Source: a virus. Taken from it: 36,574 nt of DNA. Shown piece after piece: positions 5,359 to 35,337 of this stretch; the first letter of the stretch is position 1; every line of letters begins with the position of its first letter. The stretch lies in the IMG/VR virus record IMGVR_UViG_3300028376_000015, positions 1 through 36,574 of that record, one strand, 5' to 3'. Under the pieces are notes generated by a model. The model did no database searches. It saw nothing but the letters and a program-made list of their open reading frames with translations, and was not told where the DNA came from. A program made the position numbers and the translations under genes.

Positions 5359-5390
5359 TGATACAATGAAGACAGGTCGAAGCCATTACA
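5359..5390 (+). promoter_or_regulatory. Extended -10 promoter P2 with conserved 5' leader
   Basis: TGA-TACAAT (5359-5367) is an extended -10 with no convincing -35. Nine bases after it comes TCGAAGCCATT (5377-5387). With a start 7 bases after the -10, the transcript begins AGGUCGAAGCCAUUA, identical to promoters P3 (one base differs) and P4. It lies in the only sizeable gap upstream of the replication block and should drive the genes from 5412 onward. Confidence 0.75.
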
Positions 5391-10724: not shown

Positions 10725-10808
10725 TTGACCGCTCGGAACAGACGAGCAAAAGGACTCACACTTAATCACAGTATGAGTCCTTTATCTTGGCAGAAAATGG
10801 TATACTAG
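10725..10808 (+). CDS. 27-codon leader-like ORF overlapping a terminator
   Basis: TTG 10725 opens a 27-residue frame (starts MTARNRRAKGL, ends SWQKMVY) and stops at TAG 10806-10808. Codons 9-20 run through both arms of the terminator 10749-10783, and the stop lies at the -10 of promoter P3. Translation would disrupt the terminator hairpin, an arrangement expected of a translation-dependent attenuator. The peptide is basic and has no recognised family. It may instead be a chance frame behind an SD-like site. Confidence 0.35.
   Translation: MTARNRRAKGLTLNHSMSPLSWQKMVY
10749..10783 (+). terminator. Rho-independent terminator T1
   Basis: The arms AAAGGACTCA (10749-10758) and TGAGTCCTTT (10774-10783) form a perfect 10-bp stem around a 15-base loop, followed by ATCTT. 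The T-run is partly within the stem. It separates the small SD-led unit from the Acb2-like/tmRNA unit that begins with promoter P3 only about 15 bases later. Confidence 0.8.
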
Positions 10809-10829
10809 ACGTAGGTCGAAGCCGTTATA
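10798..10829 (+). promoter_or_regulatory. Extended -10 promoter P3 with conserved 5' leader
   Basis: TGG-TATACT (10798-10806) is an extended -10. Nine bases later lies TCGAAGCCGTT (10816-10826). The predicted transcript begins AGGUCGAAGCCGUUA at 10813, differing from P2 and P4 by one base (A to G), which would still pair as G-U with the candidate small RNA. It should drive the Acb2-like gene, the tmRNA and the accessory genes downstream. Confidence 0.8.
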
Positions 10830-11115: not shown

Positions 11116-11506
11116 GGGGTCGACGGGCATCGACGGTTCATTGAAAACTACATACGGGCGAACGACTGACTCACGCACGAGTCAACAGATACTTGCAAAA
11201 GCATCAATCCCTAGTCCATACGCTCACGAGCTCGGACTGAAGAACACTGTCTTAGCGTAGGAACCAAGACACGGGGTGTGCGTGCTACTCAGCCGTAGCA
11301 ACCTATCGAGCGCACACTTTGTCATAGCCAGATAGACACTCGAAGCTGGAAGATTCTTACCTCCGACAGCTAAGAGTGATAGAGCTAAACTTTAGGGAGA
11401 CACGGAGTGGAGACCGTGCTTCCACCATCCCTGTCGCCAGCAGGCAACTGCAACGTACGTAGCAAGTAAAAGAATTCGGACGGGAGTTCAACTCTCCCCG
11501 ACTCCA
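11116..11506 (+). ncRNA. ssrA: Transfer-messenger RNA (tmRNA, ssrA), phage-encoded
   Basis: tmRNA rescues stalled ribosomes with SmpB and adds a degradation tag. The tRNA-like ends are clear. 5' GGGGTCG (11116-11122) pairs with CGACTCC (11499-11505) as a 7-bp acceptor stem with one G-U. The 5' continuation CGACGGGCATCGACGG matches the conserved D-region. The 3' part AATTCGGACGGGAGTTCAAC matches other tmRNAs, with T-stem 11482-11486/11494-11498 around loop TTCAACT. A P2-like helix joins CTACATAC to GTACGTAG with one mismatch. A tag frame sits in the right place. The 391-base length is normal. CCA is not encoded (CTA is present), so it must be added. Confidence 0.93.
11195..11260 (+). other. 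tmRNA tag reading frame (21 codons)
   Basis: The probable resume codon is GCA 11195, preceded by ATACTT as in the usual TA-x-x-T-GCAAA context. The tag starts AKASIPSPYAHE and ends LKNTVLA before TAG 11258-11260. The end resembles the usual hydrophobic (V/L)-A tails read by ClpXP, but it is longer than the common 8-15 residue tags and ends in a single A after L. The resume codon is inferred from alignment by eye and should be treated as likely rather than certain. Confidence 0.7.
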
Positions 11507-11508
11507 CT

Positions 11509-12120: not shown

Positions 12121-12384
12121 ATGAATCAATACACAAAGGAAACAGTAGTAGCATGGTCAATCCTTATCGGAGCAGTGCTGGTAGGAGGAGCAATCGGTTA
12201 CATCATCGGGAACGACTCATCACTGGACGCACTAGAAGAACGCATCGAGACACTACAACTCCAAGCAAACGAAGTTAACGAAGCATGCATCGCAGAACTA
12301 CAGAAGACCAGACGACTACTGCAGAGAGAAGCGAACATCAATATGGACACAGCAAACTCAACGGTAAGGACAAACGGTATATGA
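12121..12384 (+). CDS. Single-span membrane protein with coiled coil
   Basis: The 87-residue protein has one hydrophobic segment at about residues 9-30 (VAWSILIGAVLVGGAIGYII). A charged helix of coiled-coil type follows (LEERIETLQLQANEVNEACIAEL). The topology resembles a small spanin or anchor protein, but no lipobox is visible and it lies far from the lysis genes, so a spanin role is unproven. Its stop shares ATGA with the next ORF at 12381. Confidence 0.6.
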   Translation: MNQYTKETVVAWSILIGAVLVGGAIGYIIGNDSSLDALEERIETLQLQANEVNEACIAELQKTRRLLQREANINMDTANSTVRTNGI

Positions 12385-34002: not shown

Positions 34003-34284
34003 ATGTACGCAACATTAATATTCATTGGAACAGTACTGCTAACACAAATTGTGAAGAAGCATGTCTTCCCAAGATTTGGAGCAACAGGAGTACACGCACT
34101 GACGTTCACAATCGCACTAGTGGGTCTAGGAATCTACGAGTACGCACAAATTAATCCTGCATTCATGGACGTGATCGTATGGGCACTTGGATACCTAGCA
34201 GGAGCCGTAGCAATCTACGAAGTGATCCTCAAGAAGATTGGCATGCCATCCGCAACAACTCAATTGGAAAACGACCAAAGATAA
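34003..34284 (+). CDS. Small three-span membrane protein
   Basis: The 93-residue protein begins MYATLIFIGTVLLTQIVKKH. It has three hydrophobic segments (about 2-19, 28-46 and 55-76) and a short charged C-terminus (TQLENDQR). Its place right after holin and amidase suggests a second holin, antiholin or other lysis helper. No family is recognised. Confidence 0.6.
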   Translation: MYATLIFIGTVLLTQIVKKHVFPRFGATGVHALTFTIALVGLGIYEYAQINPAFMDVIVWALGYLAGAVAIYEVILKKIGMPSATTQLENDQR

Positions 34285-34292
34285 GTTACACT
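34264..34292 (+). promoter_or_regulatory. Candidate promoter of small RNA
   Basis: The -35 TTGGAA (34264-34269), 17-base spacer and -10 TACACT (34287-34292) form a moderate sigma70 promoter. It overlaps the 3' end of the preceding membrane-protein gene and its stop. The start would be at about 34299, at the base of the first hairpin of the small RNA. Each hexamer matches consensus at 4 of 6 positions. Confidence 0.45.
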
Positions 34293-34298
34293 ACAGGC

Positions 34299-34392
34299 AC
34301 CATGTTCGTGTTGGACATGGGTCGAATGGCTTCGAAGACCGTAAGGTCTACTCCGAAAAGCACCCACTCAACCGAGTCGGGTGCTTTTCATA
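34299..34392 (+). ncRNA. Candidate regulatory small RNA, antisense to phage leaders
   Basis: This ~93-base stretch is a series of hairpins ending in a strong terminator. It runs CCATGT/ACATGG (34300-34305/34315-34320), CGAA-TGGC-TTCG (34323-34334), AGACC-GTAA-GGTCT (34336-34349), then the terminator. AATGGCTTCGA (34325-34335) is an exact 11-base complement of the leader TCGAAGCCATT found at the 5' ends of the P2 and P4 transcripts, and nearly so at P3 (G-U) and P1 (9 bases). The loop TGGC would pair first with GCCA. The small RNA itself is inferred from promoter, structure and terminator. Confidence 0.5.
34355..34389 (+). terminator. Rho-independent terminator T2
   Basis: GAAAAGCACCC (34355-34365) pairs with GGGTGCTTTTC (34379-34389) in a perfect 11-bp stem, extended by ACTC-AACC-GAGT with one bulged C. 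The T-run is in the 3' arm and the matching A-run in the 5' arm, so it may act in both directions. It ends the late/lysis transcript and the candidate small RNA. Confidence 0.88.
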
Positions 34393-34673
34393 TCACCAGT
34401 ACAAATCCTATGGGGGTACGTTGAACGTAAACATAGAAAAGGTACATACAGTCGAAACGTACACCAAATAGCGTACAGGGCAATTCTAAGCGAATAAGAG
34501 CATGTTCAAAAACAAAAGAAAATGAACACGTTAGGAGAACAAGTGCATGAAATGCGTATGTGTATACTCTTTTCTTATCTCTTCTTCTCTCCTCTAGCGT
34601 TACATATGTAACAATGATTGTTACAAGTAGACAAAATTGTACCCACAGACAGCGTGGACAGTAGACAGAAAAG
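34390..34673 (+). other. Regulatory gap with tiny ORFs and inverted repeats
   Basis: This stretch has no convincing gene. It contains ACGTT-G-AACGT (34418-34428), TGTTCA...TGAACA (34503-34528), a pyrimidine-rich tract (34567-34595) unusual for this purine-rich strand, and the nested palindromes listed separately. Two tiny frames overlap the pyrimidine tract. One is 16 codons from ATG 34547 with AGGAG 9 bases upstream (MKCVCVYSFLISSSLL); the other is 29 codons from ATG 34522 with a hydrophobic end. Either could be a leader peptide, but support is weak. The gap may hold operator or origin functions. Confidence 0.4.
34599..34625. promoter_or_regulatory. Overlapping palindromic operator-like repeats
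   Basis: GTTACATATGTAAC (34599-34612) is a perfect 14-base palindrome, and TGTAACAATGATTGTTACA (34607-34625) is a perfect 9-bp inverted repeat around one base. The two share the middle half-site, giving three evenly placed GTTAC half-sites about 50 bases upstream of the P4 -10. This layout is typical of cooperative binding by a dimeric regulator. The regulator is not identified in the window. Confidence 0.6.
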
Positions 34674-34705
34674 TGATAAGATATATACAGGTCGAAGCCA
34701 TTAAT
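34674..34705 (+). promoter_or_regulatory. Extended -10 promoter P4 with conserved 5' leader
   Basis: TGA-TAAGAT (34674-34682) is an extended -10. TCGAAGCCATT (34692-34702) follows 9 bases later, giving a predicted transcript beginning AGGUCGAAGCCAUUA at 34689, identical to P2. It should drive the early block from 34726 rightward. Confidence 0.75.
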
Positions 34706-34725
34706 AAAAACCTAAAACAACACAC

Positions 34726-35058
34726 ATGAAAAAGTACAGCGAAAGAGACGGCTACGGAATCTACACCACAGACTTCCAAGCCACGGACGGACGCCTACAA
34801 AAGACAGGTAACTGGATAGCAGAGAACAGCATCGAGATACTGATGATCGCACTATTTGCAGGAATGGTAGTAGGAACAGGAATGCTCCTACACACAACAG
34901 CACTAGCTGCTGACACACTAATCGAGTACGCAGAAGAAAGTGAACAAACACAAGAGAACAACTATCAACTGCAACAGGTACTCGAAGCAGTCCAAAAAGA
35001 AAACGAAGAGCTCAAGAACTTCAAGCCAGTGACAGGAGCACAGATTCAATCCTATTGA
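34726..35058 (+). CDS. Membrane-anchored coiled-coil protein (front half of a split 3D protein?)
   Basis: The 110-residue frame begins MKKYSERDGYGIYTTDFQAT. It has one transmembrane segment at ~36-55 (IEILMIALFAGMVVGTGMLL), then a coiled coil (YAEESEQTQENNYQLQQVLE), and stops at TGA 35056-35058. The same frame continues past this single UGA into a complete 3D domain (see next entry). Anchor, coil and 3D domain is the usual order of wall-associated 3D proteins, so the two may be one gene with a recoded or mutated stop. It is the first gene of the P4 transcript. Confidence 0.6.
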   Translation: MKKYSERDGYGIYTTDFQATDGRLQKTGNWIAENSIEILMIALFAGMVVGTGMLLHTTALAADTLIEYAEESEQTQENNYQLQQVLEAVQKENEELKNFKPVTGAQIQSY

Positions 35059-35337
35059 AGAGTAGAGGCGGAGGTGTCAGCGTACACATCTGACATAGCC
35101 GAGACAGACGACACGCCATTCACAACGGCGTCGGGAGCTCGCACAGAGCACGGAGTAATTGCTTGCCCACGCAAGTACGACTTCGGAACGCAGGTAAAAA
35201 TTAAAGGAGAGATATACACCTGCGAGGATCGAATGAACATACGCTACGACGGCGAACACTTCGACATCTGGATGGAGCACAAAACAGACGCATACAACTG
35301 GGGTCGAAGATTAATAGAGGTAAAAATAATCAAATAA
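35059..35337 (+). CDS. 3D-domain (double-psi barrel) protein, in frame after UGA
   Basis: From 35059 the frame runs RVEAEVSAYTSDIAETDD, TPFTTASG, GVIACP, FGTQVKI and CEDRM, then DIWM and WGRR. This carries the conserved Asp, Thr-Ala-Ser-Gly and Gly-Thr features of 3D/RlpA-like barrels found in peptidoglycan-associated lytic transglycosylases. If translated alone, GTG 35074 is the start, with GGCGG poorly spaced. If UGA 35056 is read through, it is the C-terminal half of a ~203-residue anchored protein. The next base is A, a leaky context for UGA. A sequencing or natural nonsense change is the alternative. Confidence 0.65.
   Translation, partial: RVEAEVSAYTSDIAETDDTPFTTASGARTEHGVIACPRKYDFGTQVKIKGEIYTCEDRMNIRYDGEHFDIWMEHKTDAYNWGRRLIEVKIIK

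Follow-up and report, generated by a model that had tools for sequence, protein, structure and literature searches.

Several phages are known to make antisense RNAs that act on phage mRNAs. The CI RNA of satellite phage P4 is a small RNA complementary to the leader transcript of its own phage, with which it pairs to control the operon; it derives by processing from an untranslated transcript next to the targets and causes premature termination (PMC4825925). The c4 RNA of P1/P7 carries complementary segments in loops, acts near the start region of one target, the ant mRNA, and has an immunity function, while OOP, sar and aQ are each directed at one gene (cII, ant and Q, respectively) (PMC12197685). 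VpdS of VP882 and PreS of lambda are trans-acting base-pairing RNAs that bind Hfq and have host RNA targets, phage RNAs being targets of VpdS too (PMC12197685). The chromosomal RNA FasX of Streptococcus pyogenes pairs with the 5' end of the mRNA of a host gene, ska, and stabilises it (PMC7509114).

The DNA analysed here (the window, a viral sequence of 36,574 nucleotides) appears to be a circularly permuted phage genome, because a relative, L066, continues from the early promoter P4 into the genes found at the window's start. No cultured phage is close to it. Its nearest terminases in bacterial genomes (32-44% identity) fall in MAGs of Moraniibacteriota, Doudnabacteria and Woesebacteria, which makes a Patescibacterial host likely, and in further bacterial MAGs; the virus probably infects tiny symbiotic bacteria. 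No match to Hfq was found in five genomes with related terminases, which stand for possible host groups. A predicted small RNA and a leader sequence shared by several operons are present in three phage species: A (the window and L035), B (L037, L066 and L119/L177) and C (L077/L122/L121), the fragments being assigned to species B and C by inference from common sequence and sample.

The predicted small RNA, of about 91 nt, lies at 34299-34389 on the plus strand. Hairpin 1 (CCAUGUUC-GUGUU-GGACAUGG, 34300-34320) is invariant in the three species. Hairpin 2 (UCGAA-UGGC-UUCGA, 34322-34335) contains the antisense segment AAUGGCUUCGA (34325-34335), which is complementary to the operon leaders and which in the predicted fold covers the unpaired UGGC loop and the 3' arm. 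Hairpin 3 (AGACC-GUAA-GGUCU, 34336-34349) varies in sequence and length while its stem is kept, reading AGAUC-ACGCAGCAAAAGCG-GAUCU in L066. An intrinsic terminator, predicted to be strong, follows at 34355-34389 (GAAAAGCACCCACTC-AACC-GAGTCGGGTGCTTTTC) and probably also closes the late operon; a generic terminator scan did not list it, and its U4 tract is paired within the stem. The 111 nt from 34285 to 34395 fold with a predicted energy of -46 kcal/mol (z = -5.7), a stability equalled by none of 200 shuffles. The initial annotation, made from the sequence without database searches, had described a string of hairpins here with a small CGAA-TGGC-TTCG hairpin among them and a very strong terminator, and all of this agrees with the four predicted hairpins. 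It had also described a -35/-10 of the RNA's own. A candidate promoter is indeed present on the plus strand at 34264-34292 (TTGGAA at 34264-34269, 17 nt, TACACT at 34287-34292), with 6 nt from the -10 to +1 as at P2-P4, but it is weak by consensus, with four of six consensus bases in either box. Its counterparts are TTGGAA-17-TACAAT in L077 and the -10 only (TACCAT) in L066, and the putative promoter is supported better by an edge of conservation at +1 than by consensus.

This edge is seen when the intergenic regions are aligned. Invariance starts at CACCATG, the predicted +1, 6 nt past the -10, although species B has diverged upstream of this point. Identity between the window and L066/L119 is 92% over hairpins 1 and 2 and 100% over the terminator, with 53% over hairpin 3, and outside the RNA it is 73% in the upstream flanking gene, 73% in the endolysin and 68% in the downstream DNA as far as P4. 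A perfect inverted repeat, TACGTTGAACGTA, lies 3' of the terminator at 34417-34429 and is invariant in the three species amid diverged DNA. The basal closing pair of hairpin 2 is U-A in species A and C-G in species B and C. This compensatory change provides direct but small evidence for the stem, its signal being matched in 176 of 500 shuffles, as three sequences cannot beat shuffles. No Rfam family, the C4 / P4 CI type included, matched the RNA at gathering score or with a credible E-value. From its structure and conservation, 34299-34389 is very probably a real RNA gene.

The leader that the antisense segment would recognise begins at +1 of three promoters, all on the plus strand. P2 (5362-5388) has an extended -10 (TACAAT, with TGA before it) and the leader AGGTCGAAGCCATTA at 5374-5388, and serves the replication operon with its O-like and DnaC-like genes. 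P3 (10801-10827) likewise has an extended -10 (TATACT, with TGG before it), followed by the leader AGGTCGAAGCCGTTA at 10813-10827, and serves the late operon (a 62-aa gene, tmRNA, terminase and lysis genes). P4 (34677-34703) has the -10 TAAGAT with TGGACA 16 nt upstream, carries the leader AGGTCGAAGCCATTA at 34689-34703 and serves the early operon (membrane/3D-domain protein, SSB, helicase and a RecE-like gene). The shared 15 bases, AGGTCGAAGCC[A/G]TTA, begin exactly 6 nt past the -10 in each case, as the junctions TACAAT-GAAGAC-AGGTCG (P2), TATACT-AGACGT-AGGTCG (P3) and TAAGAT-ATATAC-AGGTCG (P4) show. The leader, AGGTCGA[A/G]GCC[A/G]TTA across the clade, stands at +1 in all seven of its promoters, in three species, while the preceding 6-nt spacer changes without constraint. 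A hairpin (GGACTCA...TGAGTCC) followed by TTT at 10753-10788, just before P3, is conserved in L121 and probably terminates the P2 operon. Upstream of P4 the palindromes GTTACATATGTAAC and GTAACAATgATTGTTAC (34600-34627) recur in slightly altered form in L066 and L077 and are likely operators for a regulator of the early promoter.

Among viral contigs 117 raw matches to the leader were obtained, nearly all of them chance matches without promoter context, and requiring a -10 as well reduced these to 11 contigs, 5 of which belong to the window's phage group. In distant relatives (terminase 29-55%, DnaC-like 41-59% identity) the leader and the RNA are both absent as far as the contigs extend over them, and five such relatives, read whole or nearly whole, show no comparable tag repeated at +1. 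A 287-genome sample from the phylum of one related-terminase MAG gave a single weak match, a chance terminator. Within the window a leader-like sequence with one base missing, AGGTCGAAGCATTA, occurs inside a gene at 2077-2090, within a run of over 30 bases shared without change by L037; it has no -10 at the right spacing and was left as coding sequence.

The segment AATGGCTTCGA at 34325-34335 (+) is the exact reverse complement of positions +4 to +14 of the P2 and P4 transcripts (TCGAAGCCATT at 5377 and 34692), so that the 11-base match pointed out in the initial annotation is correct, as is its statement that the A to G change at P3 (TCGAAGCCGTT at 10816) leaves one G-U pair. A search with AATGGCTTCGA allowing up to one mismatch found no other matches in the window than the three leaders. 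The chance figure of 0.02 per window given earlier is about right for one named 11-mer; the significance of the match nevertheless lies in its location in the leaders and not in the existence of an 11-mer, about one 11-base match to the RNA being expected by chance on the plus strand, where two were found, those in the P2 and P4 leaders. When the RNA was shuffled with its dinucleotides preserved, at least 11 bases complementary to the 15-base leader arose in 0.012% of shuffles (about 1 in 8,000) and at least 10 in 0.046% (0.093% for species B). The complementarity amounts to 11, 10 and 10 bases in the three species: in species B and C ten bases remain complementary (AATGGCTTCG) and a G-U takes the place of the eleventh pair, and P3 of species C (L121) reads AGGTCGAGGCCATTA, where an A to G change again leaves a G-U pair. 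All three substitutions (in the window's P3, in the L121 P3 and in the relatives' hairpin) are therefore compatible with pairing. By a rough estimate about 27% of random changes within the 11-mer are wobble-compatible, which gives about 0.02 for all three, and this weakly backs pairing. The initial annotation had looked to a covariance search in related phages for compensatory changes between loop and leaders. Among 51 sources, a covariance model of the RNA (R1) matched only the window, L066, L077 and a truncated copy in L119; the RNA is thus present in relatives, but the antisense core and the leader, invariant bar the G-U-compatible changes, never co-vary in these three closely related species, and the sole compensatory pair change sits inside hairpin 2.

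Cofolding predicted a complex for all seven leaders, with energies from -7.5 to -16.6 kcal/mol. When the 47 gene starts of the window were ranked by predicted pairing, the P4, P2 and P3 genes came 1st, 4th and 5th; by duplex energy alone, over plus-strand sites, the leaders came 4th, 9th and 14th and are not exceptional. For P4 the predicted complexes show an opened hairpin 1, with GUGUUG...CAUG paired to the A/C-rich stretch around the start of the first P4 gene (..CAACACACATG, 34715-34728, +), the paired regions being AACAACACACAUG in species A, CCAACACAAAAAACAUG in B and AACAACACCAUG in C. Shuffling of the P4 leader gave p values for this second site of 0.011 (window), 0.007 (L066) and 0.31 (L077), and neither P2 nor P3 showed such a site by the same analysis. 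Hairpin 1 was discarded as a region for targeting across the genome, since its pairing was not significant and 12% of random 34-mers equalled P4. Contact between hairpin 1 and the P4 start region is therefore only a suggestion, drawn from modelled complexes.

How pairing might act is constrained by the form of the leaders. These are short, about 37-40 nt, and the antisense target lies about 25 nt before the start codons. A Shine-Dalgarno-like motif is missing at 43 of the 47 gene starts, which makes the blocking of such a motif unlikely, and start regions are A/C-rich (for example at 12121, 34726 and 35341). Up to 9 bases of the leader (UAAUGGCUU) are complementary to 16S rRNA in one of the genomes checked, an extent expected by chance in a few percent of cases; the 16S segment concerned is not known to lie near the mRNA path. 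In the mechanism that we propose, the small RNA would be transcribed from a promoter of its own in the stretch separating the lysis genes from P4, and hairpin 2, through its UGGC loop and 3' arm, would pair in trans with +4 to +14 of the P2, P3 and P4 transcripts. A structured RNA held on a short leader without a Shine-Dalgarno motif could then alter ribosome access or 5'-end stability and lower expression of the target. At P4 hairpin 1 may also mask the A/C-rich start region and the AUG, so that the P4 early genes would be the strongest target. Late read-through past the lysis genes, possible because the small RNA sits directly after them, could raise its level and shut off the early genes late in infection. 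That the pairing of small RNA and leaders is functional appears slightly the better reading of the comparative evidence. The fuller proposal, a trans-acting antisense RNA that binds its own phage's operons at their 5' ends and probably represses them, mainly at P4, is about evenly balanced. A phage-wide post-transcriptional switch, in which one antisense RNA reads the shared 15-base tag and so times early, replication and late genes, is put forward more tentatively.

The most substantial competing account, though in our view an unlikely one, accepts a small RNA or structured 3' UTR and takes its match to the leaders as coincidence. The +1 tag would then be an element of the DNA or of initial transcription, such as one recognised by an activator or antiterminator of the phage, and hairpin 2 would serve another target or only RNA stability. 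It would fit with this that P2 and P3 have no -35 (one or two of six bases) and an extended -10 in every species, as would be expected of activator-dependent promoters, that the invariant part of the leader includes +1 to +3 and +15, which are unpaired in the 11-bp duplex, and that chance alone predicts an 11-base match to the RNA at some plus-strand site. A match within the leader itself, however, has a shuffle frequency of only 1.2e-4, and the pairing survives all three substitutions. Conservation moreover begins exactly at +1 and is missing from the spacer before it, which points to the transcript, and the promoter of the small RNA does without the tag. It is still less likely that the locus does no more than close the late operon, as a terminator preceded by hairpins, and that the RNA has no function of its own. 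Its place directly after the lysis genes and the 97-100% conservation of the terminator would suit such an end, but hairpins 1 and 2 are unnecessary for termination and yet near invariant, and conservation runs from the predicted +1, with the -10 retained in L066 despite diverged upstream sequence. That the region encodes a short protein is very improbable. An open frame does span it from an ATG at 34302 (MFVLDM...), but the reading frame is not the same in the three species, owing to a 1-nt difference that follows hairpin 1 and to 11 nt inserted in L066. The window's product agrees with the others for six residues and those of L066 and L077 agree with each other for twelve, and a coding ORF was rejected on account of the differing frames.

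A different question is the sign of the effect. The same RNA and the same pairing could be positive if the RNA capped mRNA 5' ends against 5'-dependent decay, by analogy with FasX and ska, which provide a precedent (PMC7509114). Such 5'-end protection is a serious alternative to repression, although its overall probability appears low. The predicted target is the extreme 5' end of every major transcript (+4 to +14), away from the start codon, but at P4 the predicted complex reaches over the start region. Should the pairing be functional, a net effect of repression is reasonably favoured over stabilisation.

Two neighbouring genes have unusual features. At 34726-35337 the first P4 gene ends at a TGA (35056-35058) and the same frame continues as an apparent 3D-domain protein. 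L077 and L066 both retain this in-frame TGA together with the residues directly behind it (R/K-V-x-A-E-V-S-A-Y-T-S-D), while 16 of the 47 genes have TGA as their stop, which suggests programmed UGA readthrough to give a membrane-anchored hydrolase-like protein. A phage-encoded tmRNA (11116-11507) heads the late operon; its tag, AKASIPSPYAHELGLKNTVLA, is the same in L121 and differs from the tags of four tmRNAs from related MAGs.

If the pairing works, one RNA and one shared 5' tag would give compact control of a whole phage genome, in phages of uncultured, probably Patescibacterial hosts, and would provide a concrete case of small-RNA action on leaders without a Shine-Dalgarno motif, perhaps without Hfq. 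Phage antisense RNAs being known, the description of the locus as a new kind of phage RNA circuit was too strong for the class, and it is for the arrangement, a single RNA with the same 5' tag at the head of all major operons, that we found no counterpart in the literature consulted. In those parts of the literature on phages of probable Patescibacterial hosts that were reached by term searches, no mention of small RNAs was found. By sequence and conservation the window RNA has the features of a trans-encoded sRNA, namely a predicted promoter and intrinsic terminator of its own, apart from its targets, and a short conserved seed of 10-11 bases complementary to them in three species. It is like the P4 CI RNA in being small and in its predicted pairing with the phage's own leader transcripts (PMC4825925), but it has its own predicted promoter and terminator and its target tag lies at +1 of three separate operons; processing from the regulated transcription unit, a trait of the C4 and P4 CI RNAs, is not seen, the predicted targets being other units. 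With c4 it shares complementary bases placed in a loop and with OOP, sar and aQ the action, here predicted, of phage RNA on phage mRNA (PMC12197685), whereas its short match would be to a tag common to three separate leaders and not to one gene. Like VpdS and PreS it is predicted to be trans-acting (PMC12197685), with the difference that its targets are predicted to be operons of the phage itself and that the possible host groups gave no Hfq. Pairing with an mRNA 5' end, known for FasX (PMC7509114), is predicted here too. Set beside these systems, one RNA matched to a 5' tag common to several operons looks new.
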